From Rudaeicoccus suwonensis (lineage in GTDB: Bacteria; Actinomycetota; Actinomycetes; Actinomycetales; Dermatophilaceae), in contig NZ_VIVQ01000001.1 in the NCBI RefSeq assembly GCF_007829035.1, positions 2,170,001 to 2,234,000 of the forward strand: DNA of 64,000 bases, in the 5' to 3' direction. Below the pieces are notes generated by a model. It was not told where the DNA came from, did not search any database, and saw only the letters and a program-made list of their open reading frames with translations. Of this stretch, positions 7,907 through 19,738 are shown piece by piece. The position numbers and the translations under genes are program-made. Each line of letters opens with the position of its first letter. The first letter of the stretch is position 1.

Positions 7907-8755
7907 GTGACCACTCCCCTGCGCCAGGCCATTGCGGCGCCGTGCTTCGACGCGACTGCGAGCGAACTCGTCGACCTGGCAGTGCAGGCCGAAAACCGAG
8001 GGTTCGACGGCTTTTTCATCTGGGACCACCTGCAGTTCTCCAACGACATCGACGGCCCGGCCGTGCACGACCCGTGGGCCTTGCTCGCCGTCATCGCCGA
8101 CCGCACCGAGCGCATCCGGATCGGCCCGATGGTCACCCCGGTCTCGCGCCGGCGACCGTGGGTGCTCGCGCGACAGAGCGTCACGATCGACCACCTCAGC
8201 AACGGACGCCTCACCCTCGGCGTCGGCCTCGGCTCACCCGCGCAAGGTGACTTCGCCCGCTTCGGCGACGCCGCCGACAACAAAGAGCGCGCAGCGCTGC
8301 TCGACGAAGGCCTCGCCGTCTGGGCGGGCCTGTGCAGCGGTGAGGAGTTCAGCTACACCGGCACGCACTACCGCATCAAGCCCACGCGGTTCAGCCCCCG
8401 CCCGATCCAGCCGCACATCCCCGTGTGGGTCGGCGGCGTCCTGCCCGCGCAGCGGCCACTGCGCCGCGCCGCCGCCTGGGACGGCGTCGTGCCGATCACC
8501 TACCGCGACGGCCGCCTCACCCGACCGACCGCGCCAGAGATGGCCGCCGCCCTTCACACCATCGAGAGTGCGCGCGACGACATGACCGGTTACGACAGCG
8601 TCGTCTGGTCACCGCTTCACGGGACCGAGCCACAGGACAGCGACATACTTGATGAGTATGTCGCAGCCGGTGTCACCTGGTGGATCGAAACCGCTGTGCC
8701 ACAACCGAATTGGCAGGCGGACCTGCGCACTCGCATCGCCAACGGCCCCGTCTGA
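7907..8755 (+). CDS. LLM-class flavin-dependent oxidoreductase
   Basis: A 282-residue luciferase-like monooxygenase-family protein (FMN- or F420-dependent TIM barrel). Typical features are the opening 'LRQAIAAPCFDATASELVDLA', GFDGFFIWDH, the run RIRIGPMVTPVSRRRPWVLAR, and LSNGRLTLGVGLG. I chose GTG 7907 because the family begins at about this point; upstream residues in the frame do not look like protein, and a -10-like GATACG lies close before it, so the mRNA may be leaderless. The substrate is unknown. It stands alone between relic DNA and a toxin-antitoxin pair. Confidence 0.85.
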   Translation: MTTPLRQAIAAPCFDATASELVDLAVQAENRGFDGFFIWDHLQFSNDIDGPAVHDPWALLAVIADRTERIRIGPMVTPVSRRRPWVLARQSVTIDHLSNGRLTLGVGLGSPAQGDFARFGDAADNKERAALLDEGLAVWAGLCSGEEFSYTGTHYRIKPTRFSPRPIQPHIPVWVGGVLPAQRPLRRAAAWDGVVPITYRDGRLTRPTAPEMAAALHTIESARDDMTGYDSVVWSPLHGTEPQDSDILDEYVAAGVTWWIETAVPQPNWQADLRTRIANGPV

Positions 8756-8822
8756 CGCAGCCGCAACAGAGCCGTCGCGCACCCTCGGCGGGGAAATGGG
8801 TGGCGCCTGCCCCAGCATCCCG

Positions 8823-8844
8823 GTACGCACAACAGGCGTACACT
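8823..8844 (+). promoter_or_regulatory. Dyad and -10 box upstream of the DUF1778/GNAT pair
   Basis: GTACGC (8823-8828) and GCGTAC (8836-8841) form a perfect 6-bp inverted repeat, overlapped by a TACACT -10 box (8839-8844) six bases before ATG 8850. A ribbon-helix-helix antitoxin/toxin complex would be expected to bind such a site and repress the operon; the position suggests a leaderless transcript. Confidence 0.4.
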
Positions 8845-8849
8845 TCACC

Positions 8850-9137
8850 ATGAGCGCGACACCCGATGCCGGCCGCAAGCATGCCCGCCTTGCGATGCGC
8901 CTTACGCCAGATCAAGACGCGCTGATCCGTGATGCCGCGGCCGCAACCGGCCAATCACTCACCGAGTTCGTCATGACCGCTGCGGTAGGCCGTGCGGAGG
9001 ACACATTGGCCGACCGGCGCGTGTTCCGACTGAGCGACGTCGCGTGGGCCGACTTCGCCACGATCCTTGATCGACCTGCCAAACCGATCCCCGAACTTGC
9101 CGCCCTATTGAGCGAATCCGCCTCCTGGGAAAAGTGA
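8850..9137 (+). CDS. DUF1778-family ribbon-helix-helix antitoxin (TacA-like)
   Basis: This 95-residue protein has the DUF1778 pattern ARLAMRLTPDQDALIRDAAAATGQSLTEFVMTAA, an N-terminal ribbon-helix-helix DNA-binding fold, then a C-terminal segment (RVFRLSDVAWADFATILDRPAKP) that in TacA blocks the acetyltransferase active site. The stop overlaps the GTG start of the GNAT toxin gene by four bases. The start at ATG 8850 fits family length; longer readings extend into non-coding-looking sequence. Known: TacA-TacT pairs control persistence by acetylating aminoacyl-tRNA. Confidence 0.88.
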   Translation: MSATPDAGRKHARLAMRLTPDQDALIRDAAAATGQSLTEFVMTAAVGRAEDTLADRRVFRLSDVAWADFATILDRPAKPIPELAALLSESASWEK

Positions 9138-9637
9138 AACCGCAACAGCCAAGGCCCATCGATGCAACAGACGCCCCGTCTGGCTTCGACTCTGGAGAAG
9201 AGTCGCTCGATCGCTACCTGGTCACCAGGGCACTGACCAACCATCTGGCAGACCTTGCACGCTGCTATGTCTGCATCGATGCAGACACCGACAAGATCAT
9301 CGGTTACTACACGTTGTCGGCCGTCGCCGTCGAACACGCACACCTGCCCGGCAGAGTTCGGCGAAACGCGCCGAACCCCGTCCCCGCAGTGCTGATGGGG
9401 CGGCTCGCGGTCGACACCGAAGCACAAGCATCTGGCCTCGGTCGGTCTCTCGTGCGGGACGCGATCCTGTCCACTCTTGCCGCAGCCGACCGTATCGGCG
9501 TGCGCATCCTGCTGGTCCATGCCCTGCCCCATCAGGCGGCGACCTTCTACGAGGCACTCGGGTTCAAGCAATCACCCACCGACCCGCTACACCTCTACCT
9601 GCTCCTGGCCGATGCGCGAAAGTCCCTCAGTGGCTGA
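9134..9637 (+). CDS. GNAT-family acetyltransferase toxin (TacT-like)
   Basis: A 167-residue GCN5-related N-acetyltransferase. The segment VPAVLMGRLAVDTEAQASGLGRSLVRDAI contains the acetyl-CoA pyrophosphate-binding loop (Q-x-x-GLG, with Ala-Ser in place of the usual Gly-x) and the strand preceding it; FYEALGFKQSP is the usual terminal motif. Toxins of this family acetylate the amino group of charged tRNAs and stop translation. It starts at GTG 9134 overlapping its antitoxin, so synthesis is coupled. It is intact. Confidence 0.87.
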   Translation: MKPQQPRPIDATDAPSGFDSGEESLDRYLVTRALTNHLADLARCYVCIDADTDKIIGYYTLSAVAVEHAHLPGRVRRNAPNPVPAVLMGRLAVDTEAQASGLGRSLVRDAILSTLAAADRIGVRILLVHALPHQAATFYEALGFKQSPTDPLHLYLLLADARKSLSG

Positions 9638-9736
9638 CCACGTCTGTGAACTGCGAGTTGCTCGAGTCGACGACACGGGCGGACATCGACACCGCGGCGC
9701 CTGACGGCGTCATACGTCTCGGTCGCCGGTGCCACG

Positions 9737-10213
9737 ATGGGTCACATGCCCGAGCTCCCCACGCTGCGACCCGTCCACCTGGCTCCGCTGATGACGATCT
9801 CCGCCGAGATCGGCGCCATGGTCGAGGTGTCCGGCACCCGCCGGTACATCCCGATCACCGGCGGCGCGTTCACCACCCGCGACGGGCTGCGCGGGGTGGT
9901 GCTGCCCGGTGGCGCGGACTGGCAGGTCGTGCGACCGGACGGCGCCCTGGAGATCGAAGCCCACTACGCGCTGCGCACCGACGCAGGTGACGGCATCGAG
10001 GTGCACTCCTCCGGCCTCCGCAACATCACGCCCGAACTCGCCGCACGCGTCGCGGTCGGCGACGACGTCGACCCGGGCCTGTACTACTTCCGCACCGCGA
10101 TACGTATGACGACCGCCGCCCCGGCGCTCGGCCACCTCGACAAGATGCTCGCGATCGCCACAGCCAGGCGCGACCGTTCGGCGGTCTTGCTCGACGTGCA
10201 CGAAGTGCTCTGA
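9737..10213 (+). CDS. DUF3237 (UPF0311) family protein
   Basis: A 158-residue soluble protein of the DUF3237 family: PVHLAPLMTISAEIG near the start, RRYIPITGGAF, then GALEIEAHYALRTDAGDGIEVHSSGLR, and a final stretch with YYFRTAIRMTTAAPALGHLDKMLAIATARR. The family has a beta-barrel fold and no assigned reaction. ATG 9746, nine bases further in, is an alternative start. It is a single gene followed by a repeat-rich intergenic region. Confidence 0.85.
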   Translation: MGHMPELPTLRPVHLAPLMTISAEIGAMVEVSGTRRYIPITGGAFTTRDGLRGVVLPGGADWQVVRPDGALEIEAHYALRTDAGDGIEVHSSGLRNITPELAARVAVGDDVDPGLYYFRTAIRMTTAAPALGHLDKMLAIATARRDRSAVLLDVHEVL

Positions 10214-10234
10214 GCCGGAGACCGGTTGCGACAT

Positions 10235-10462
10235 GGAGATCGCGCGGGTAGGTGGTCGGCGTGGCGACCGCGTGAAGCGGGCACCGCGAGGCGTGGCCGA
10301 GATGACGATTACTTCCCGGTATCGCCGCTGAGACCGGAAGTAATCGTCATACAAACCACCCCACCGTTCCTCACGTGACGCATGGGACGGGTGCGCCTCA
10401 CCACAGCACGCAGCGGTCCTCGCCAAGGCCACACACGTGGACGAAGTCGCCGCATCGGCGAC
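10235..10462. repeat. Dispersed intergenic repeat, copy A
   Basis: Three parts occur in the same order here and at 56172-56451: first GAGATCGCGCGGGTAGGTGG... (10236 on), then a hairpin with 15-bp arms (ATGACGATTACTTCC 10302-10316 and its complement 10336-10350), then a GC-rich tract ending in the near-palindrome GTCGCCGCATCGGCGAC (10446-10462). Parts are highly similar between the copies, though neither contains a gene. This looks like a REP/BIME- or MITE-like element; no transposase is nearby. Confidence 0.8.
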
Positions 10463-10508
10463 ATATGGACACGCCGGTGCTGCTGGCACAGGCGGGTCCG
10501 CCCATAGA

Positions 10509-10566
10509 TCACCGAATCCGAGGCTTAGAGATCGCGCGGGTAGGTGGTCGGCGTGGCGATCGCCTA
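10509..10566. repeat. Partial second copy of the dispersed repeat
   Basis: TCACCGAATCCGAGGCTTAG (10509-10528) followed by AGATCGCGCGGGTAGGTGG and TCGGCGTGGCGAT (to 10560) repeats the first module of copy A almost exactly and resembles the module at 56172-56222. The palindromic part is degenerate here. The hairpin module does not follow, so this is a fragment. Confidence 0.75.
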
Positions 10567-10675
10567 CCCGCGCGCGAAATTCGCGCAACATCTGCAGGGG
10601 ACGTCACCCTCCGATCTGGAACAGCAACTCGGTGTCGGTCCAGGCGATCTGCTGGAGCAGGCGCCGCGTATCTGA
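10553..10675 (+). pseudogene. Possible C-terminal gene fragment
   Basis: From GTG 10553 a 40-codon frame reads VAIAYPRAKFAQHLQGTSP then DLEQQLGVGPGDLLEQ and stops at 10673-10675. The amphipathic, Gln/Leu-rich composition looks more like protein than random sequence, but I recognise no family, and its start lies inside the repeat fragment. It may be the tail of a lost gene cut by the repeat, or chance. Between 10676 and 10745 I see nothing more than the region before the next start codon. Confidence 0.25.
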
Positions 10676-10745
10676 GGCTGCTGACAACGCAGGATCCGCA
10701 GCACATTACGGCCGTCCATGGCCGCGGCTCTGGCATGATCGACGC

Positions 10746-11654
10746 ATGCTGTCGGATGAGCAGGATGACGCGCTCCGGCAGGCTGCGATGGACTGGCTGC
10801 GAATTCGCACCAATGACGGGCTCGACGCTCTGACATCAGAGGAGATCCTCGAGTTCCAATTTCAGGGTGAGCCGCGTCGTCTCGCCGCAACGCAACAAGG
10901 CATCTGGAAACCGCACGACCTTCCGGCCGCACTTGCGATCCGCACCACGTATCGCGCCGAAGGACAAGAACGGCCGTATGACGACAACCTCGGAGTGGAC
11001 GGGCTCTTCCGTTACAAGTGGCGTGGTGACGATCCGCTGCATTCGGACAACCGAGCGCTGCGAGCGGCGAAAGACCTTGGGAAGCCGCTGATCTGGTGGT
11101 GGGGCGTCGGCAAGGCGGTCTACAAACCCATCTTCCCGATCTACCTGATTGATGAAGAGATCACGCAGCAACAATTCGTCGTCGCCACGGATGGCCTGCA
11201 AGAGTTGCCGGAAACCGGTTCCGCAGTCGAAGAAGTCCTCCGTCGCTACATCCAGCGAGAGACGCTGCAACGACTGCATCAACCGGTGTTCCGATCGATG
11301 GTGATGCGAGCGTACGGAACACGTTGCAGCGTCTGTGAACTCGGCCACTCCGTGCTCCTAGATGCAGCACATATCGTCGAAGACCGCCACGAGTTGGGAG
11401 TCGCCGCTATCCGAAACGGATTGGCGTTGTGCAAGATTCACCACAGTGCGTATGACGCGGGCATCCTCGGCGTGACGCCGGATCTGACGATCAAGATTCG
11501 CAGCGACATCTTGCAAGAGGTCGATGGGCCGTTGCTGGAACACGGCCTCAAGGCACTCAACAACACGCCTTTGCGTGTGGTTCCCAAGGTTCGTAAGGAA
11601 CGCCCTGACCCCGAACTTCTCGAAATCCACTACCAGAAATTCATCGCCAGCTGA
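10746..11654 (+). CDS. HNH endonuclease, McrA-like, with possible sulfur-binding domain
   Basis: A 302-residue nuclease. The C-terminal half has an HNH fold: CSVC (194-197), LDAAHIVED with His209, NGLALCKIHHSAYD with Asn224 and His232/233, an HNH_2-type arrangement. The first 140 residues (KPHDLPAALAIRT, YDDN, FRYKWRGDDP...NRALRAA, PLIWWWG) resemble the N-terminal domain of ScoMcrA/SprMcrA-type enzymes, which recognise phosphorothioate DNA; I hold that assignment loosely. Such enzymes restrict incoming modified DNA (type IV). It stands alone after the repeat region, consistent with a defence island. Confidence 0.8.
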   Translation: MLSDEQDDALRQAAMDWLRIRTNDGLDALTSEEILEFQFQGEPRRLAATQQGIWKPHDLPAALAIRTTYRAEGQERPYDDNLGVDGLFRYKWRGDDPLHSDNRALRAAKDLGKPLIWWWGVGKAVYKPIFPIYLIDEEITQQQFVVATDGLQELPETGSAVEEVLRRYIQRETLQRLHQPVFRSMVMRAYGTRCSVCELGHSVLLDAAHIVEDRHELGVAAIRNGLALCKIHHSAYDAGILGVTPDLTIKIRSDILQEVDGPLLEHGLKALNNTPLRVVPKVRKERPDPELLEIHYQKFIAS

Positions 11655-11712
11655 GCGGACCGGCACGTCATTCGGCCCACAGCCGCTCGTTGCCGATTTG
11701 TAGACTCCGCTG

Positions 11713-12492
11713 GTGAGCAGCTTCGAGACTGGCGTCGCGCACACGACCGACGGTGCCGAGATCTATTGGGAATCCCACGGATCCGGGCCGGTGCTGCTGC
11801 TGGTCGCGGGCCAAGCGTGCAGTGGCCGCTGCTGGGAGTCTTTGGTGCCCCAGTTGTCGGATCAGCACCGGGTGCTGTTGTTCGACCATCGCGGGGTCGG
11901 GCGCAGCACGTCCGGAGATCTCAGTGGGACGACGACCCGCTCGTTCGCAACTGACGTCGTCACGCTGCTGGATCACGTTGGTGCTCAGTCGGTTTCGGTC
12001 TTCGGGCACTCGATGGGTGGTCGCATCTCGCAGTGGCTGGCAGTCGACCATCCTGAACGAGTGGAACGCCTGGTGCTGGCCAGCACGACCGGCGGCGATC
12101 GTCGCGGGGTGCAGCGCGATCCGGCGATCAGTGCCCAGCTCGCGTACGGCGACATGGCGGCGATGGCGCGCCTCAGCTTGACCGACGCGTTCCGCGAACA
12201 GCACCCCGATGTCGTTGATGCCTTCGTCAACAACACCCTCACTCCTGCCGCCCGACGGGCGCACTTCGAAGCGAGCCGGGACCATGACGCATGGGACGCG
12301 GTCCACCGAATCACCGCGCCCACGCTCGTCATACACGGCCAGAATGATCAGCTGACGCCGCCTGGCAACGCACAGCTACTCGCCGAGCGCATCCCGCAGG
12401 TGAGCCTGATCATCGAGCCTGGGCAACGACACTGCGCGCACCTGGAGTCAGATCGTCTGCAACATGAGGTCATCGAATTCCTCAGTGTGTGA
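11713..12492 (+). CDS. Alpha/beta-fold hydrolase
   Basis: A 259-residue alpha/beta hydrolase with the oxyanion-region stretch LLVAGQACSGRCWE, the FDHRGVGRS turn, nucleophile elbow GHSMGG (Ser near residue 99) and the cap, then LVIHGQNDQLTPP, which contributes the acid, and a late His in RHCAHLE. Proteins of this kind include esterases, haloperoxidase-like enzymes and peptidases; substrate is unknown. It starts with GTG 11713, preceded by a TAGACT -10-like box with almost no leader. Confidence 0.85.
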   Translation: MSSFETGVAHTTDGAEIYWESHGSGPVLLLVAGQACSGRCWESLVPQLSDQHRVLLFDHRGVGRSTSGDLSGTTTRSFATDVVTLLDHVGAQSVSVFGHSMGGRISQWLAVDHPERVERLVLASTTGGDRRGVQRDPAISAQLAYGDMAAMARLSLTDAFREQHPDVVDAFVNNTLTPAARRAHFEASRDHDAWDAVHRITAPTLVIHGQNDQLTPPGNAQLLAERIPQVSLIIEPGQRHCAHLESDRLQHEVIEFLSV

Positions 12493-12568
12493 ACGACATT
12501 CGCTGTGCAGCCACGGAGACCATGACCGGGCTGTTGGCACAGTAGCGCAGTCCTCGCTGATAGAAGAG

Positions 12569-12802
12569 TCACCCGTTCTTAGACGCCAGGAAGTGGTCAA
12601 AGTCGAACGCTTCCAATGGACCCGACGCTTCGCCGGCGATGATCGCAGCGCGTAGCGACGCCATCTGCGTCTCTCGGTCCTGGAGCAGGCGCAAGCTGGC
12701 ACACACGACGTCGCTGGCCGAGCGGTAGCGCCCTGACTCAACCGCACGTGCCATGAAGTCAACGAGGTGATCATCCAGCCCGATGGATATGTTCTGATCC
12801 AT
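12569..12802 (-). CDS. ParD-family antitoxin, apparently without its toxin
   Basis: The 77-residue protein MDQNISIGLDDHLVDFMAR...GRYRSASDVVCASLRLLQDRE is a ParD1-type ribbon-helix-helix antitoxin with a C-terminal toxin-wrapping segment. I prefer the ATG at 12802 over the upstream one at 12838 because the family starts there. The usual ParE gene should overlap or follow its 3' end, at about 12490-12570, but no frame there reads like an intact ParE. The gene is thus an orphan or the surviving half of a decayed pair. Confidence 0.8.
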   Translation of the reverse strand: MDQNISIGLDDHLVDFMARAVESGRYRSASDVVCASLRLLQDRETQMASLRAAIIAGEASGPLEAFDFDHFLASKNG

Positions 12803-12961
12803 ACGCAGATGGTGCCAGCTGTTGGCGGGTGAGGCCATCCGAAACGACGGCTGCCAGTGGGTTGGGTCCCACTCGTCGCTGACCGCTCAGCTGCCGTTCC
12901 TGCCGAGCCGAGTCGAGTCGCCTCCTGAATAACGACAGTCAGCTGATGTCGCCTCCGCTGG

Positions 12962-14410
12962 CTAAAGATGCCAATCGATCTCCTGCAGCGCGTGCTCGAA
13001 TGCCCCGTTCGGTCTCGCCGACGGCAGCACCTTCAGGACATTGGCTCGAGCCGACTCCAGGTCGGCGCCGCGGAGCATCGCATACGCCATCGCCACCGTG
13101 GGCGTGCGTGACTCGGCGCGCACGCAGTGCAGGAAGACCGTCTTGCCCTCGTCCCGCAGCGCCGCAACCGTCCGCGCGGCATCCTCGATGACGAACGTGA
13201 GATTCGGATTCGCACCCGCCGTCGGGTCGTCGATCAGCCGAAAGACGAAGCTTTCCAACGCATTCGGCACTTGTGAGCGACCGACGAGGCACAGGCTGAC
13301 CACTGCATCAACGTCGGACGGCAGCGCCGCCAGCGCACCGACACCGCCGAGCCACAGGCCCGCGTCGGCCGGGTGCTGCACGAGCGTGCCAGCGCCCTCC
13401 CACGTCGAGTAGTCGAGCTGCTCGGCCATCGGCCAGCCCAGGTGGCCCGCGCGGCCTCCGTTCGACGCGAGATGCGCCAGTTCCACGAGCCGCTCGCCGC
13501 GAACCCCCGGATATCCGTGCAGGATTCGCCGGTATGCCGCAGGCACCGCGGACGCGCCCCACCGCGCGCCCAGCAGCCCTCCGGCAATGGCCGCGACGGT
13601 GTCGGTGTCGTGGCCGATCGCGATCGCCGTCGCAAGTGCATCGTTGAGGTGGGCGCACGCAGGTCCGTCCGACGGGATCGCTGTGTGCACAATCGCCGAC
13701 CACGCCGCCTGGAAGGCGCCCATCACGTGACCGTTCTGCACGAACGTCCCAGGCTCACACGCCTCGGCCTGCTCGATCAGGCCTGACCAGTAGGCCTGCG
13801 CGTCGTGGTCGAGCCACGGCAGACCGACACGTATGTCGAGTTCGGCGTGCACGATCGCGTGCCGAATCGCCATCGACCACAACACACATGCCTGCCCGGC
13901 CAGCGGGTCGTGATGGGTCAGCGAGCTGACCGCCATAGCCGCCTGCGCGAGCGCGTCGCGGTCATCGAGGTAGGCCAGGGCCACGGGTGCGGTGCGCATG
14001 AGCGAGCCATTGCCCGCGCTGCGCCCTGTCAACTCGTGCAGGCGTCGCGCCACCTCGGTCATGGATGCCGCCGTCGACCCGCTTGCCGCGAGCACCCGCG
14101 CCGTTTGCATGCCGATGTCCGGCGGACGGCTGTCCGACCACGCCTTGAAACCGGCAGCAACAAGGTCGAGACCCTCCCCGCCGCGCACATCGAGACCGTC
14201 GGCGAGAGGCGCGAGCACGGCATACGTCATGGACGTGTCGTCGGTCCACTCCCCCGGCGCGAATCCGCCGAGGCCGCCGCCGATCATCTGCGGACCGGCG
14301 GGGCCGAGGGTGGCCGAACCGAACTCATAGCCTGCGCCGAGGGCGTCGCCATTGGCTGCGCCAAGGATGGCGCCGCATGCCCGATCCTGCTGTGCCGCAG
14401 TCAGTTGCAT
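12962..14410 (-). CDS. ADP-ribosylglycohydrolase fused to a dual-specificity phosphatase-like domain
   Basis: A 482-residue, two-domain protein. Residues 5-330 are an ADP-ribosylglycohydrolase (DraG/ARH) with metal ligands in WTDDTS (55-60) and GHDTDT (266-271). Residues 340-482 contain the phosphatase signature HCVRAESR (CX5R, Cys429 and Arg435), with general-acid candidates upstream. ARH enzymes remove ADP-ribose from arginine; the second domain may dephosphorylate a product or a protein. It starts at ATG 14410, overlapping the stop of the upstream small gene (TGATG), so the pair is co-translated. The divergent NrtR-like gene suggests control by ADP-ribose or NAD. The real substrate is unknown. 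Confidence 0.85.
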   Translation of the reverse strand: MQLTAAQQDRACGAILGAANGDALGAGYEFGSATLGPAGPQMIGGGLGGFAPGEWTDDTSMTYAVLAPLADGLDVRGGEGLDLVAAGFKAWSDSRPPDIGMQTARVLAASGSTAASMTEVARRLHELTGRSAGNGSLMRTAPVALAYLDDRDALAQAAMAVSSLTHHDPLAGQACVLWSMAIRHAIVHAELDIRVGLPWLDHDAQAYWSGLIEQAEACEPGTFVQNGHVMGAFQAAWSAIVHTAIPSDGPACAHLNDALATAIAIGHDTDTVAAIAGGLLGARWGASAVPAAYRRILHGYPGVRGERLVELAHLASNGGRAGHLGWPMAEQLDYSTWEGAGTLVQHPADAGLWLGGVGALAALPSDVDAVVSLCLVGRSQVPNALESFVFRLIDDPTAGANPNLTFVIEDAARTVAALRDEGKTVFLHCVRAESRTPTVAMAYAMLRGADLESARANVLKVLPSARPNGAFEHALQEIDWHL

Positions 14411-14925
14411 CAGGTGAAAGCCTTTCCCATACCGCGCAGCACCAGATCGGCCTGCGCGACGTCGAAGTTCTTGAGATAGCTGTCGAAGAAGTCGTCGAAG
14501 ACAACCGCAGCGAAGATTCGAGCCGGCAAGATCGCGTACTGCCACACTCCCTCGGGACGCAACCCGAGCTGACAGTCGCCGTAGCGGGGACCGTCGATCG
14601 CGAGGTGGAGTCCGGCCGCCTGTGTGTCGGGCACCTGGGCCACGACTCGTGCCATCAGTCCGATGCGCAGCGGGTTCTCGAGCACGCGCACCCACAGCCC
14701 GTGGCCGCGGTGGTCGAGCTCGAAGTCACCGTCGTCGTCGATCTGCACCTCGTCGCAGTACCGCGCGTGAAGACAGTTGCTCACGATCTCGTAGAGCTCG
14801 TCGCGGTCACGCGGAGTCACCGCCACCAGTTCCGGCTCCTGCTCCACCATGTCGTCCTCCCGCGGTGCCTCGTGCGTGTCGGCCAACTCGGACGCCACGT
14901 CGTCCCAGTTGAGTTCGTCGGTCAT
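14410..14925 (-). CDS. Small acidic protein, possibly TY-Chap/YbjN-like
   Basis: A 171-residue acidic protein that I do not firmly recognise. Residues 50-150 (EIVSNCLHARYCDEVQIDDDGDFELDHRG..., LWVRVLENPLRIGLMARVVAQVP) resemble the T3SS-chaperone-like TY-Chap or YbjN fold. The preceding 45 residues look unstructured. The start at ATG 14925 is set by AGGAGG five bases upstream; longer readings are less likely. It overlaps the ADP-ribosylglycohydrolase gene by one base, so it may be a partner or adaptor of that enzyme. Confidence 0.6.
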   Translation of the reverse strand: MTDELNWDDVASELADTHEAPREDDMVEQEPELVAVTPRDRDELYEIVSNCLHARYCDEVQIDDDGDFELDHRGHGLWVRVLENPLRIGLMARVVAQVPDTQAAGLHLAIDGPRYGDCQLGLRPEGVWQYAILPARIFAAVVFDDFFDSYLKNFDVAQADLVLRGMGKAFT

Positions 14926-14960
14926 CGCCACCTCCTCTTTAGCATGCATCGTTCTCTTAT

Positions 14961-14994
14961 TTGTCATTTAACACGCTTCTTTCGCTATAGTCAA
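14961..14994. promoter_or_regulatory. Overlapping divergent promoters of the ADP-ribose gene group
   Basis: On the plus strand TTGTCA (14961-14966) and TATAGT (14986-14991) give a promoter whose start would fall at ATG 14998. On the minus strand TTGACT (14994-14989) and TTAAAT (14971-14966) are 17 bases apart and face the small-protein/glycohydrolase operon. The two promoters interlock, so one bound regulator could control both directions; the divergent NrtR-like protein is the obvious candidate. Confidence 0.5.
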
Positions 14995-14997
14995 CGG

Positions 14998-15672
14998 ATG
15001 CCGAAACTGGAGGCCTTTCCACGACCCGCCGTTGCTGTCGACCTCGCCCTGCTGACCGTCGACGACCCGGTGTCGACTCCGGCGCTGCGGGTGTTCATTC
15101 GTGATCTGAACGGCGAACATCATTTGTTACCAGGAGGTTTCATCCGCGAGCGCAGCACCATCGCGCAGACCGTGGACTGGATCTTGGAGCAGAAGGTCGG
15201 GCTGTCACTCCCCCGTGGTGTCACGCCCCGGCTGCTGCGGGTGTTCGACGCACCCGACCGCGACGACCGCACCTGGGCAATGTCGATCGCGCATTCGATC
15301 TGCCTGCCGACCGGTATGACGCAGCGCGTCGCCGGCGACTGGGTGGCTCCACAGGAGGTCGGCAAGCTCCGGTTCGACCACAACAACATCGTCGATGCAG
15401 CGGTCGCCGAGTTGCGCGAACGCTATGAGTTCAGAGGGCGTTCGGAGGATCTGATCAGCCCCGACCCGGACGGATTCTTCGGGTCGGAGGCGTTCACCCT
15501 GCACCAGTTGCGCAGGGTGCACGAGGCGGTCGTAGGGATGCCGATGCACAAGGACAACTTCGCCAAACGTATGACGCCGCTGCTGGATCCGGTGTTGCAC
15601 CGGGACGGCACGCCGGTGCTTGCTCAGAACCTGCGCGGCCGGCCGGCTGCGCTCTACCGTCGCCGCGCCTGA
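14998..15672 (+). CDS. NrtR-type Nudix-related transcriptional regulator
   Basis: The 224-residue protein has an N-terminal Nudix fold (residues 10-150) and a C-terminal winged helix (SEAFTLHQLRRVHEAVVGMPMHKDNFAKRM... GRPAALYR) as in NrtR. In the Nudix box region LPGGFIRERSTIAQTVDWIL, the catalytic RE and EE positions read WI and QK, so hydrolase activity is probably lost. In NrtR the domain acts as a sensor for ADP-ribose and controls NAD genes. Here it faces an ADP-ribosylglycohydrolase operon across 72 bases with interlocked promoters. It may be leaderless. Confidence 0.82.
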   Translation: MPKLEAFPRPAVAVDLALLTVDDPVSTPALRVFIRDLNGEHHLLPGGFIRERSTIAQTVDWILEQKVGLSLPRGVTPRLLRVFDAPDRDDRTWAMSIAHSICLPTGMTQRVAGDWVAPQEVGKLRFDHNNIVDAAVAELRERYEFRGRSEDLISPDPDGFFGSEAFTLHQLRRVHEAVVGMPMHKDNFAKRMTPLLDPVLHRDGTPVLAQNLRGRPAALYRRRA

Positions 15673-15775
15673 CTTGGTGGGCCGCGTGCGTGCGCCTCGT
15701 GGACGGAGCGCGGTGCGCCGGACGACGTCATACAGCTCGATCGTCGATGTCGTTCGTGACTGCTAGCTTCCGGCC

Positions 15776-16168
15776 ATGACAGATTCCTCGCCCTCCCACC
15801 CCGCGCCAGGGGTTATCGCCGACGCCAAGATCCGCTCGACCGGCGCGTGCATCCTGCTGATGATCGTGACGCTCGGGTTCTACAGCTGGTACTGGTGGTT
15901 CAAGGTGCACTCCGACCTGCAGCGCCAGCGCGACCGTGGGCTCGGCGGCGGAATCGCGCTCGTGCTGGCGATCTTCATCTCCATCGTCCTGGTTTTCCTC
16001 ACCCCGTCCGAAGTGGGCGACGCCTGCAAAGACCGCGGGATCCAACAGCGAGTCAGCGCGGTCACCGGCCTGTGGGTGCTGTTGCCGCTGGTCGGCATGA
16101 TCGTGTGGTTCGTGAAGGTGAACGGTGCTGTCAACCGCTACTGGGAATCGCTCGGCGTGCGCGCCTGA
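15776..16168 (+). CDS. DUF4234 family membrane protein
   Basis: A 130-residue protein with three hydrophobic segments (about residues 22-42, 58-78 and 97-115) and the DUF4234 features GFYSWYWWFKVHSDL and VNRYWESLG near the end. The function of the family is unknown. A CGTCATAC octamer lies in the upstream intergenic region (about 15726-15733). No operon partner is visible; 16169-16356 holds no gene. Confidence 0.78.
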   Translation: MTDSSPSHPAPGVIADAKIRSTGACILLMIVTLGFYSWYWWFKVHSDLQRQRDRGLGGGIALVLAIFISIVLVFLTPSEVGDACKDRGIQQRVSAVTGLWVLLPLVGMIVWFVKVNGAVNRYWESLGVRA

Positions 16169-16356
16169 CCAAAAGCACTGGACATGGCGGCCCTTGGACA
16201 GCCTCTTGTAGGTGCGTGGATGTCCGCGCTCTGTGGCGATTTGGGCGCAGAGCCGCGCTTCATGACGAACACGCCACGGCGCCGTACCGAAACTGTCCCT
16301 GCCCGTCGATAGAGTCCAACCTGTAATCGCGGCCCGACGGGCTTCCGCCGCAGGAC

Positions 16357-18279
16357 ATGCCCCCAATCCGCACGATCATTTCGTGCTGCCTGGGGACACC
16401 TGCCTTGACGCTATACCGCACTTCCGTTGATGGATTCTCTGCAATCGAGCACCGCTTCGTCGAGCTTCTTTCCGACAGCATGAGATCGGCTACGGGTCGG
16501 AGACCCAGCGCGTCCGAAGCACGCTCATGGGCCAACAGCATTCCCGCCCTTCGAGCCGACCTCATCTCAGCAGGCCTGGGCAGTGTGGAGATGCTGTTCG
16601 AGCACCAGCTGCCACTCACGAGCAAGCGTGCGGATGTCATCCTCGTGGGAGAAGATCCGCGCAGCGGCGATCCGTCATACGTGATCGTGGAACTGAAGCA
16701 GTGGAGCGAAGCGAGCGTCTTCGAGGACGACATCACTCTGGTCTCGGTTCCGGCGTACGGCAGGCCGGTCACGCATCCGGTGCTTCAGGTCCGTGATTAC
16801 TGCGACTACCTCGTTGACTTCACCACCGTGCTCGAAGATCGCGCCGACGCGGTTTCCGGAGCGGCCTATCTTCACAATGCCTCGGCAACCGGCGTGTCTC
16901 AACTGTTCGGCCTTCCTGGCGACCAGCGCGGTCGCCTTTTCACCGGCGACAGGAGAGGTGAATTCGTCGACTTTCTGCGGAGCCACTTGGCCGAGAACCG
17001 TTCAGGCGCTGGATATGCCGACGAGTTGCTCAGCAGCCGCATCGCGCCGTCCCGCCAACTGTTGTCGGTGGCCGCGGAGGAGGTGCAGCGGCGTGAGATG
17101 TTCGTGTTGTTGGACGAGCAGCGTGACGCCTACAACTATGTGCTCCACGAGGTCGATCGGGCCCGACGGGCCGATTCCAAGTCTGCGGTAATCATCACCG
17201 GTGGCCCGGGCACGGGCAAGAGCGTGATCGCGCTGTCGCTGCTGGGAGAACTGTCCCGCCAGGGACGAGCAGTGCTGCACGCCACAGGCTCGCGCTCGTT
17301 CACTGAGACACTGCGAAAGGTCGCGGGCAAGCGTTCAACGAAGGTCAAGGCGATGTTCAAGTATTTCAACTCGTTCATGGCCGCTGAAGCCAACGACCTC
17401 GACGTGCTGATCCTCGACGAGGCGCATCGCGTGCGCGAAACATCGGTGAACCGCTGGACTAAGACGGAACTGCGAACAAAGCGATCACAATTGGACGAAT
17501 TGTTCTCCGCCGCAAGGGTTCCCGTGTTTCTACTCGACGAGCACCAGGTTGTTCGTCCGGGCGAGCTGGGCACTGTGACAGACATCGAGTTGTATGCCGC
17601 TGAACACGAAATCCCGGTGACCAGAATCAGTCTTGATGATCAGTTCCGGTGCGGTGGTTCGGAGGCCTACGTCGACTGGGTACAGCGCCTCCTCGGACTA
17701 CGTCCGGGCGGCCCGGTTGCGTGGGAGGGCGATCCGAACTTCACAGTCGACGTCGTCGAGTCACCGTTCGACCTTGACGACGTCATGCGACGACAGAATG
17801 CAGAGGGGTACACGGCTCGAATCACCGCCGGCTACTGCTGGCCATGGAGTGACCCACGCAAGGACGGGACTCTGGTCAACGACGTGAGTATCGCGGATTG
17901 GTCGAAACCCTGGAATCTCAAAGGACCTAGAGCAGTCGGCGGTGCGCCGACCGCTCCGTTCTGGGCAAGCGATCCGGCTGGATTCGGTCAGGTCGGCTGC
18001 GTCTACACCGCGCAAGGATTTGAGTACGACTACGCCGGGGTGATCATCGGCCGCGATCTCGTCTGGCGCACCGATCGATGGATCGCGCAGCGGCTAGAGA
18101 ACCGTGATCCTGACTTTCGCAACCTGAAAACCGTCGCAAACGATCGCTTCGACCAACTAGTGCGTAACGTCTACAAAGTACTGCTCACCCGTGGAATGCA
18201 GGGCGTCACGATCTATTCCACTGACAGCGAAACCCGTCGCTTTCTCGACTCACTCATGCCCTCCCAACCCGGTCAGTGA
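16357..18279 (+). CDS. DUF2075 / Schlafen group 3-like helicase with N-terminal nuclease-like domain
   Basis: A 640-residue protein. Near the N-terminus the pattern FEHQLP, ADVILV (Asp93), VIVELKQW (Glu112, Lys114) matches a PD-(D/E)XK nuclease core. Residues 270-640 are a superfamily 1-like ATPase: Walker A GGPGTGKS (282-289), Walker B LILDEAHR (351-358), and LDDQFRCGGSEAYVDW and VYTAQGFEYDY later, all as in DUF2075. Related proteins are linked to defence against phage or foreign DNA. The start is uncertain: ATG 16357 gives the longest form, while TTG 16405 has a GGGGA site and begins MTLYRTS as relatives often do. It ends the accessory block. Confidence 0.78.
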   Translation: MPPIRTIISCCLGTPALTLYRTSVDGFSAIEHRFVELLSDSMRSATGRRPSASEARSWANSIPALRADLISAGLGSVEMLFEHQLPLTSKRADVILVGEDPRSGDPSYVIVELKQWSEASVFEDDITLVSVPAYGRPVTHPVLQVRDYCDYLVDFTTVLEDRADAVSGAAYLHNASATGVSQLFGLPGDQRGRLFTGDRRGEFVDFLRSHLAENRSGAGYADELLSSRIAPSRQLLSVAAEEVQRREMFVLLDEQRDAYNYVLHEVDRARRADSKSAVIITGGPGTGKSVIALSLLGELSRQGRAVLHATGSRSFTETLRKVAGKRSTKVKAMFKYFNSFMAAEANDLDVLILDEAHRVRETSVNRWTKTELRTKRSQLDELFSAARVPVFLLDEHQVVRPGELGTVTDIELYAAEHEIPVTRISLDDQFRCGGSEAYVDWVQRLLGLRPGGPVAWEGDPNFTVDVVESPFDLDDVMRRQNAEGYTARITAGYCWPWSDPRKDGTLVNDVSIADWSKPWNLKGPRAVGGAPTAPFWASDPAGFGQVGCVYTAQGFEYDYAGVIIGRDLVWRTDRWIAQRLENRDPDFRNLKTVANDRFDQLVRNVYKVLLTRGMQGVTIYSTDSETRRFLDSLMPSQPGQ

Positions 18280-18367
18280 GTTCGCCACGATGCAGTGACA
18301 CCGCATCCGGGCCGAATCGGCAGGTGACGTTCAGCCAGCTGCGGGGCGTCCGCGTGATAGTGGCTGT

Positions 18368-19738
18368 ATGACGATCACCCCTGGACACGGCGACGATCAA
18401 CTCCGCGACGAACTCGTGCAGGGCGGGTGGCGAGCCCTCCCCCGCGAGCGCATCGGCGACGAGCCGATGCCACCGACTGCGGCATACGAAGCGATCCGCG
18501 CCGACCTTGAGCTCGACGGCAGCGCCCGGCTCAACCTGGCGACCTTCGTGACGACCAGCATGGAGCCGCAGGCCAAGGCCCTGATGGCCGAGTGCATGGA
18601 CAAGAACATGATCGACAAGGACGAATACCCGCAGACCGCTGACATCGAGCAGCGCTGCGTCAACATCCTGGCCGACCTCTGGCATGCCGAAACCCCAGCA
18701 ACTCCAACGGGTTGCTCCACCGTCGGCTCCAGCGAAGCGTGCATGCTCGGCGGCCTGGCGCTCAAGCACCGGTGGCGTGCCCGCGTCGGTGACGACCTCA
18801 CCCGCCGCCCCAATCTGGTGCTCGGTGCGAACGCCCAGATCTGCTGGGACAAGTTCTGCCGCTACTTCGAGGTCGAGCCGCGCCTGGTGCCGCTCGAGGG
18901 CGACCGGCTGCACCTCGACGCCGACAGCGCCCTGAAGTATGTCGACGAGAACACCATCGGTGTCGTGGCGATCCTCGGCTCGACGATGGACGGCAGCTAC
19001 GAGCCGGTCGCCGAAATCGCTTCTGCCCTCGACAAACTCGCAGCGAACGGCGGCCCCGACATACCGATCCACGTCGATGCGGCATCCGGTGGATTCATCG
19101 CGCCCTTCATCGACCCTGGCCTGCAGTGGGACTTCCGCATCCCCCGCGTCGCGTCGATCAATGCCTCGGGCCACAAGTTCGGTCTGGTGTATCCCGGTGT
19201 CGGCTGGGCAATCTGGCGCAATCAGGACGCCCTGCCGCAGGACCTGGTCTTCAACGTCAACTACCTCGGCGGCAACATGCCGACCTTCGCGCTGAACTTC
19301 TCGCGCCCCGGGATGGAGGTCGTCGGTCAGTACTTCATGTTCACCCGGCTCGGCCGAGAAGGCTTCCGAGTCGTGCAACAGGCCGCGCGTGACGTCGCTG
19401 GCCTGATCGCCGAAAACATCGACCAGATGCCGCAATTCGAGTTGCTCAGCCGTGGAGACGAGACGCCGGTCGTCACCTTCACCACGACCGATGCCGCGCA
19501 GGGTTGGGATGTCTTTGCCGTCTCCCGCGGTCTGCGGGAACGCGGGTGGCAGGTGCCGGCCTACACGATGCCCAAGAACCGCGAGGATCTCGCCGTGCTC
19601 CGGATCGTATGCCGCAACGGCCTCACCTCCGACCTGGCCGACTGGCTGTTGCGCGATCTGCACGACACCGTCGCCACCCTCGCCAGGGAGGCGCACACCG
19701 ATCACGAACTCAGTGGTAAGGAGGCCTTTCACCACTGA
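18368..19738 (+). CDS. gadB: Glutamate decarboxylase
   Basis: The 456-residue PLP enzyme converts glutamate to GABA and CO2, consuming a proton. Features are HVDAASGG (Asp237 binding the pyridine nitrogen), the Schiff-base lysine in ASGHKFG (Lys270) and full family length. It ends in KEAFHH; in E. coli GadB a C-terminal histidine closes the active site at neutral pH, and the His pair could do the same. No glutamate/GABA antiporter gene is nearby, so a complete acid-resistance system is not shown. ATG 18368 lies within a GTATGACG octamer. It converges with the uronate dehydrogenase gene 24 bases away. Confidence 0.93.
   Translation: MTITPGHGDDQLRDELVQGGWRALPRERIGDEPMPPTAAYEAIRADLELDGSARLNLATFVTTSMEPQAKALMAECMDKNMIDKDEYPQTADIEQRCVNILADLWHAETPATPTGCSTVGSSEACMLGGLALKHRWRARVGDDLTRRPNLVLGANAQICWDKFCRYFEVEPRLVPLEGDRLHLDADSALKYVDENTIGVVAILGSTMDGSYEPVAEIASALDKLAANGGPDIPIHVDAASGGFIAPFIDPGLQWDFRIPRVASINASGHKFGLVYPGVGWAIWRNQDALPQDLVFNVNYLGGNMPTFALNFSRPGMEVVGQYFMFTRLGREGFRVVQQAARDVAGLIAENIDQMPQFELLSRGDETPVVTFTTTDAAQGWDVFAVSRGLRERGWQVPAYTMPKNREDLAVLRIVCRNGLTSDLADWLLRDLHDTVATLAREAHTDHELSGKEAFHH

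Follow-up and report, generated by a model that had tools for sequence, protein, structure and literature searches.

Three adjoining genes in the window analysed here, a 64-kb stretch from a 7-contig genome of 3.83 Mb, encode an ADP-ribosylglycohydrolase (ARG) fused to a phosphatase, a TY-Chap1 domain protein and an NrtR-like regulator. All three open reading frames lie where a sequence-only reading of this DNA had placed them (Table 1). The stop codon of the TY-Chap1 gene overlaps the start codon of the fusion gene in the sequence TGATG, so translational coupling is likely, in keeping with the co-translation proposed earlier, and the regulator gene diverges from this operon with the two start codons 72 bp apart (14926-14997). 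Our overall explanation, to which we assign a probability of roughly 60%, is an ARG-centred operon under a dead-Nudix repressor, which an inducer would release to permit de-ADP-ribosylation.

Table 1 Features of the locus, in window coordinates.
Feature	Position	Strand	Remarks
TacA-type antitoxin gene, then overlapping GNAT acetyltransferase gene	8649-9637	+	PF08681; likely TacA/TacT-type toxin-antitoxin pair
HNH_2 endonuclease-like protein gene	10437-11654	+	homologues near ARG loci L138 (53%) and L086 (40%)
ParD-family antitoxin gene	12569-12838	-	PF03693, E 6e-26; no recognisable ParE toxin gene beside it
ADP-ribosylglycohydrolase-phosphatase fusion gene (P0001, 482 aa)	12962-14410	-	ARH/DraG fold at residues 13-291 and C-terminal Cys-dependent phosphatase
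TY-Chap1 domain protein gene (P0002, 171 aa)	14410-14925	-	PF22551; T3SS/YbjN-type predicted peptide-binding chaperone
Putative operator site 2	14938-14960	-	ATAAGA-GAACGATGCAT-GCTAAA, left half degenerate
Putative operator site 1	14967-14989	-	TATAGC-GAAAGAAGCGT-GTTAAA, inverted repeat, 11-bp spacer
NrtR-like regulator gene (P0003, 224 aa)	14998-15672	+	PF21906; Nudix sensor domain and winged helix
Schlafen-group-3 helicase gene, possible accessory gene	16357-18279	+	PF09848, E 5.5e-86; PADLOC PDC-S41, E 6e-18

The fusion protein is the only ADP-ribosylglycohydrolase that Pfam recognised in the genome, with ADP_ribosyl_GH (PF03747) covering residues 13-291 at an E value of 4e-46. Both of the motifs noticed previously, WTDDTS and GHDTDT, are present, and the metal-binding residues D57, D58, D268 and D270 are invariant among 20 homologues from the class (43-62% identity). 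The HCX5R loop reported in the same chain is likewise intact (HCVRAESR, HCX5R at residues 428-435), and H428, C429 and R435 are invariant across the same homologues together with D394, the candidate general acid of a dual-specificity/rhodanese-type region at about residues 343-477. DSPc (PF00782) matched residues 406-477 at an E value of 1.2e-5, under the Pfam family cut-off, and the C-terminal part matched PDB entry 2hcm by sequence (E 3.6e-5); though the Pfam score is sub-threshold, the invariant residues and the predicted fold support the phosphatase assignment. A Foldseek search with an AlphaFold model built from the 20-homologue alignment (pLDDT 91.8, pTM 0.92) gave DraG, the T. thermophilus ARH, the Tri1 immunity protein and ARH3 as the best PDB folds. 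At least ten Streptomyces griseus phages encode a glycohydrolase that stands alone, devoid of the phosphatase domain, and shares 39-43% identity with residues 1-313 of the fusion protein (for example, MH229864.1, 51758-52708).

The 171-residue partner, previously described as unknown, belongs to a named family: Pfam TY-Chap1 (PF22551) matched it at an E value of 1.9e-8 and 34.4 bits against a cut-off of 27, and an AlphaFold model from 12 relatives (pLDDT 86.9) had as its best Foldseek matches in the PDB the type III secretion chaperones ExsC (TMt 0.76), SchA and VecA, as well as YbjN. A peptide-binding role would be plausible.

The regulator matched NrtR_WHD (PF21906) over the cut-off with an E value of 1.2e-9, and its nearest PDB relatives are AraR, NrtR and NadQ (matches include 5bs6 and 3gz5). 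As the sequence-only reading had claimed, its Nudix catalytic residues are lost: the box GX5EX7REUXEEXGU is not intact, all catalytic residues being gone through E53S, R61W, E62I, E65Q and E66K. Across 57 distinct fusion-linked regulators, Glu62 and Glu66 are both missing without exception, and because these catalytic glutamates are lost the proteins are probably sensors only. The full catalytic set is kept in 10 of 14 other regulators, mostly from Streptomyces, which are unlinked in the sense of not accompanying a fusion of this type, some of the Streptomyces ones adjoining a different, co-oriented ARG. Streptomyces-type NrtR-like regulators with an intact box occur at loci L023, L025, L026, L028 and L030 of the class sample, and several regulators of this type adjoin the different ARG gene in the same orientation, which amounts to a second way of combining regulator and ARG. 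By analogy with distant NrtR relatives, the ligand of the regulator studied here may be ADP-ribose. The genome encodes one other NrtR winged-helix protein, which adjoins nadA, an identity that Pfam confirmed, as well as a short reading frame with an FAD domain taken for nadB; since this separate paralogue sits beside nadA, our regulator is probably not the NAD regulator of the genome and probably acts locally, which agrees with the earlier view that the regulated operon seems to act on ADP-ribosylated molecules and not on NAD synthesis.

A scan of genome contigs yielded 80 actinobacterial loci, the relatives among them not all being independent, and a homologous regulator lies upstream of and divergent from the fusion gene in 40 of the 80 (within 2.1 kb in 38). 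Two more loci (L083 and L138) have a regulator-like match downstream, and half of the 80 have no recognisable regulator of this type. TY-Chap1 was found in 11 of the 80, lying 12-18 bp upstream of the glycohydrolase gene in L062, L063, L065, L066, L067, L069 and L134, whereas in L068 and L089 it closely follows that gene on the downstream side. Nocardioides, Janibacter and Gordonia have TY-Chap1 in the same slot as the window, and other loci fill this slot with ARPP-1, a VWA protein or a protein with an HD domain. The genes downstream differ among loci as well, encoding a GmrSD nuclease or RNase H-like proteins with or without a helicase. The same association of regulator and fusion recurred in a sample of 297 genomes drawn evenly from the class, and the three-gene group is therefore real. 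The grouping proposed from this one genome thus has counterparts elsewhere, its genes being neighbours across actinobacterial genera, so that the refuting case named with it, a trio that adjoins in no relative, does not hold; a search for relatives within the same genus returned the window's own genome alone.

The region 14926-14997 had been proposed as the target of the regulator, and the putative operator indeed falls inside it. In close relatives, the DNA separating the divergent genes contains the inverted repeats TTAGC-N11-GCTAA and TTTAGC/A-N11-GCTAAA, of which the latter extends as far as the ribosome-binding site. This 11-bp-spacer pattern is common to the clade relatives L062, L066, L067, L068, L069 and L085 and is fitted exactly by site 1 of the window, while site 2 is in register with the second repeat of the relatives and stops just before the ribosome-binding site of the operon, GAGGAGG. 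As a general form, the strict 11-bp pattern read from close relatives fails in other clades, most loci of which carry one or two copies of the palindrome TTAGCGCA-N4-TGCGCTAA, with a 10-bp spacer. The spacer thus measures 11 bp in the window's TY-Chap1 clade (L062-L069, L085) versus 10 bp in the other regulator clades. The 10-bp operator is the ancestral form and that of the window's clade is 1 bp longer; the difference suggests that operator and regulator changed together.

With both spacings counted, at least 12 of the 16 consensus positions are matched in 37 of 41 intergenic regions, and elsewhere in the same loci 33 positions reach this score, out of some 860,000 per spacing. Since the consensus derives from the very intergenic regions scored, we used Mycobacterium and Microbacteriaceae sites alone to train a matrix and ran it on 18 loci from other groups, where the top site (within up to 20 kb) was intergenic in 16 of 18 and the top two in 15 of 18. 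A consensus-free dyad test was weaker, though suggestive, with 18 of 40 regions having at least 7 of 8 pairs where 3.6 were expected. Site 1 of the window scores 11 of 16 on the general consensus; with 0-1 mismatch allowed, it is the sole match to the clade pattern in the 3.83-Mb genome (reversed control, 12 matches), and the general 10-bp-spacer consensus with three mismatches occurs at only two poor places elsewhere. The interlocked promoters of the sequence-only reading were not confirmed: a consensus scan found no sigma-70 promoter in 14860-15060, and the conserved feature of the 72-bp intergenic region is the putative palindromic operator. If the two divergent transcripts have separate promoters, both must lie within these 72 bp. 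A promoter picked by eye, TTGTCA-N18-TATAGT, was discarded with 0 matches, the actual spacing being 19.

The surroundings fit a defence-rich region, with toxin-antitoxin, HNH and Schlafen-type helicase genes that are candidate members of the group at most. The N-terminal stretch of the helicase resembles a restriction-type nuclease (ELK motif, by eye), and a 56% identical homologue lies near a TY-Chap1/ARG/GmrSD cluster (L134); because this link occurs in 1 of 80 loci only, we leave the helicase as a possible member. The annotated neighbours from 8649 to 19738 include no ADP-ribosyltransferase family, the genome has no DarT, and the three proteins of the group matched no PADLOC model.

The trio best fits, as an actinobacterial example, the ARG-centred systems that Iyer, Burroughs, Anantharaman and Aravind predicted computationally in 2022 (PMC9503650, section 3.8), naming TY-Chap1. 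These authors proposed that such systems reverse phage-imposed ADP-ribosylation and that phage-directed ADP-ribosylation releases an inducer which lifts repression. They reported a phosphatase in the same chain or an adjacent gene in about 55% of the systems, along with a Nudix or WYL one-component regulator and a predicted chaperone (TY-Chap1-3, SseB or VWA), and suggested that the Nudix domain of the regulator may help to process ADP-ribose. Their main text contains no operator or palindrome, and what we add to the published prediction is the likely operator DNA of the regulator, conserved in about forty related genomes. Our search of the open-access literature, with subscription journals mostly outside its scope, found no experimental tests of ARG-centred systems.

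From the domains, catalytic residues, coupling, gene order, Nudix loss and conserved operator, all read from sequence, we infer how the operon may be repressed, its ligand and substrates, the part of the chaperone and its biological role. At rest, the dead-Nudix/winged-helix regulator would occupy the tandem palindromes within the 72 bp between the divergent genes and so occlude the region where the TY-Chap1/glycohydrolase-phosphatase operon begins, and probably the start of its own gene too. An outside transferase, from a phage or as a competitor's toxin, would modify molecules of the cell, ADP-ribose or a derivative would rise and bind the Nudix pocket, and the repressor would let go. The glycohydrolase could then strip ADP-ribose from the modified target, the phosphatase could take phosphate off the (phospho-)ADP-ribose product or the target, and the TY-Chap1 protein may present modified or misfolded protein to the enzyme. 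That this is a local, ligand-controlled de-ADP-ribosylation operon we consider probable. Phage transferases as its main trigger are a more tentative proposal, to which we give slightly less than even odds, and an anti-phage function would be tentative as well.

Toxins of competing bacteria are the strongest rival trigger, phage transferases being slightly favoured. The operon might serve as orphan immunity against ADP-ribosylating toxins of competitors, as Tri1 does, and not against phages: among the PDB matches of the fusion protein are Tri1 itself (6dre/6drh) and an ART-ARH pair of effector and immunity protein from Listeria (8za7), the NCBIfam Tri1 model is its second match, albeit a sub-threshold one, and the group encodes no transferase and has toxin-antitoxin genes nearby. 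Tri1-type immunity, however, is normally found beside its toxin, neither a phosphatase fusion nor a regulator that has an operator to itself belongs to the Tri1 arrangement, and the Tri1 score is far under the cut-off (68 versus 490 bits), so that we regard this explanation as rather unlikely. Less probable still is an endogenous role of the DraT/DraG kind, in which ADP-ribosylation of one protein, nucleic acid or metabolite of the cell itself is reversible; the closest curated model to the ARG domain is that of DraG (TIGR02662, E 2.6e-24, below cut-off) and the fusion lies on the chromosome and occurs widely across the class, but the group comes without a transferase partner, and its patchy distribution, plasmid copies and variable accessory genes (GmrSD, RNase H-like/helicase, ARPP-1, VWA, HD) resemble a conflict system. 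An ordinary NrtR controlling NAD salvage, with enzymes recycling free ADP-ribose, would account for the NrtR-type winged-helix and Nudix domains, but is very improbable given the paralogue beside nadA, an operator at this locus only and a gene group that contains no NAD biosynthesis gene.

Within the preferred reading, a repressed operon that de-ADP-ribosylates molecules modified from outside, a bolder version is conceivable. The fused phosphatase may point to substrates of a class apart, such as ADP-ribose phosphorylated at the 2' or 1'' position or nucleic acid carrying ADP-ribose, with the dead-Nudix repressor reading the product. The group would then be a self-contained circuit for repair or defence that senses its own product and whose tandem operator coevolves; we rate this as a speculative proposal that is improbable as a whole. 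The operator itself offers a DNA probe for binding, a basis for reporters that respond to the inducing ligand, and a signature by which further members can be recognised.

Comparison with known proteins places each component in a familiar family and in an unfamiliar setting. NrtR, AraR and NadQ share with the regulator a Nudix-fold sensor, a C-terminal NrtR winged helix and a palindromic operator located where the controlled genes begin; they differ in that our regulator belongs to another operon without a link to NAD genes, a place held by the nadA-adjoining paralogue, and its operator pattern occurs at this locus only and not at NAD biosynthesis or salvage genes. DraG and the Tri1-type ADP-ribosylarginine hydrolases have the ARH fold and the conserved metal-binding aspartates in common with the fusion protein, which has in addition a C-terminal phosphatase domain and a chaperone-domain partner, and lacks a transferase partner. 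The TY-Chap1 protein has the same predicted fold and Pfam family as the T3SS/YbjN chaperone superfamily (ExsC, SchA, CesT and YbjN), but whereas T3SS chaperones accompany a secretion system, its gene belongs to an ADP-ribose operon, and the bacterium is Gram-positive. The closest likeness is to the ARG-centred systems (PMC9503650): the window's trio combines a DraG/ARH-type glycohydrolase without an adjacent transferase, fused to a rhodanese/DSP-type phosphatase, with a one-component Nudix-winged-helix regulator and a predicted TY-Chap1 chaperone, and it shares their variable nuclease and helicase neighbours and actinobacterial distribution, although the GmrSD, ARPP-1, HD and VWA genes of relatives are absent beside it. 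In contrast to the published suggestion, the Nudix domain of the regulator has no catalytic glutamates in the clade examined, which argues against an ADP-ribose-processing role for the regulator, at least here.
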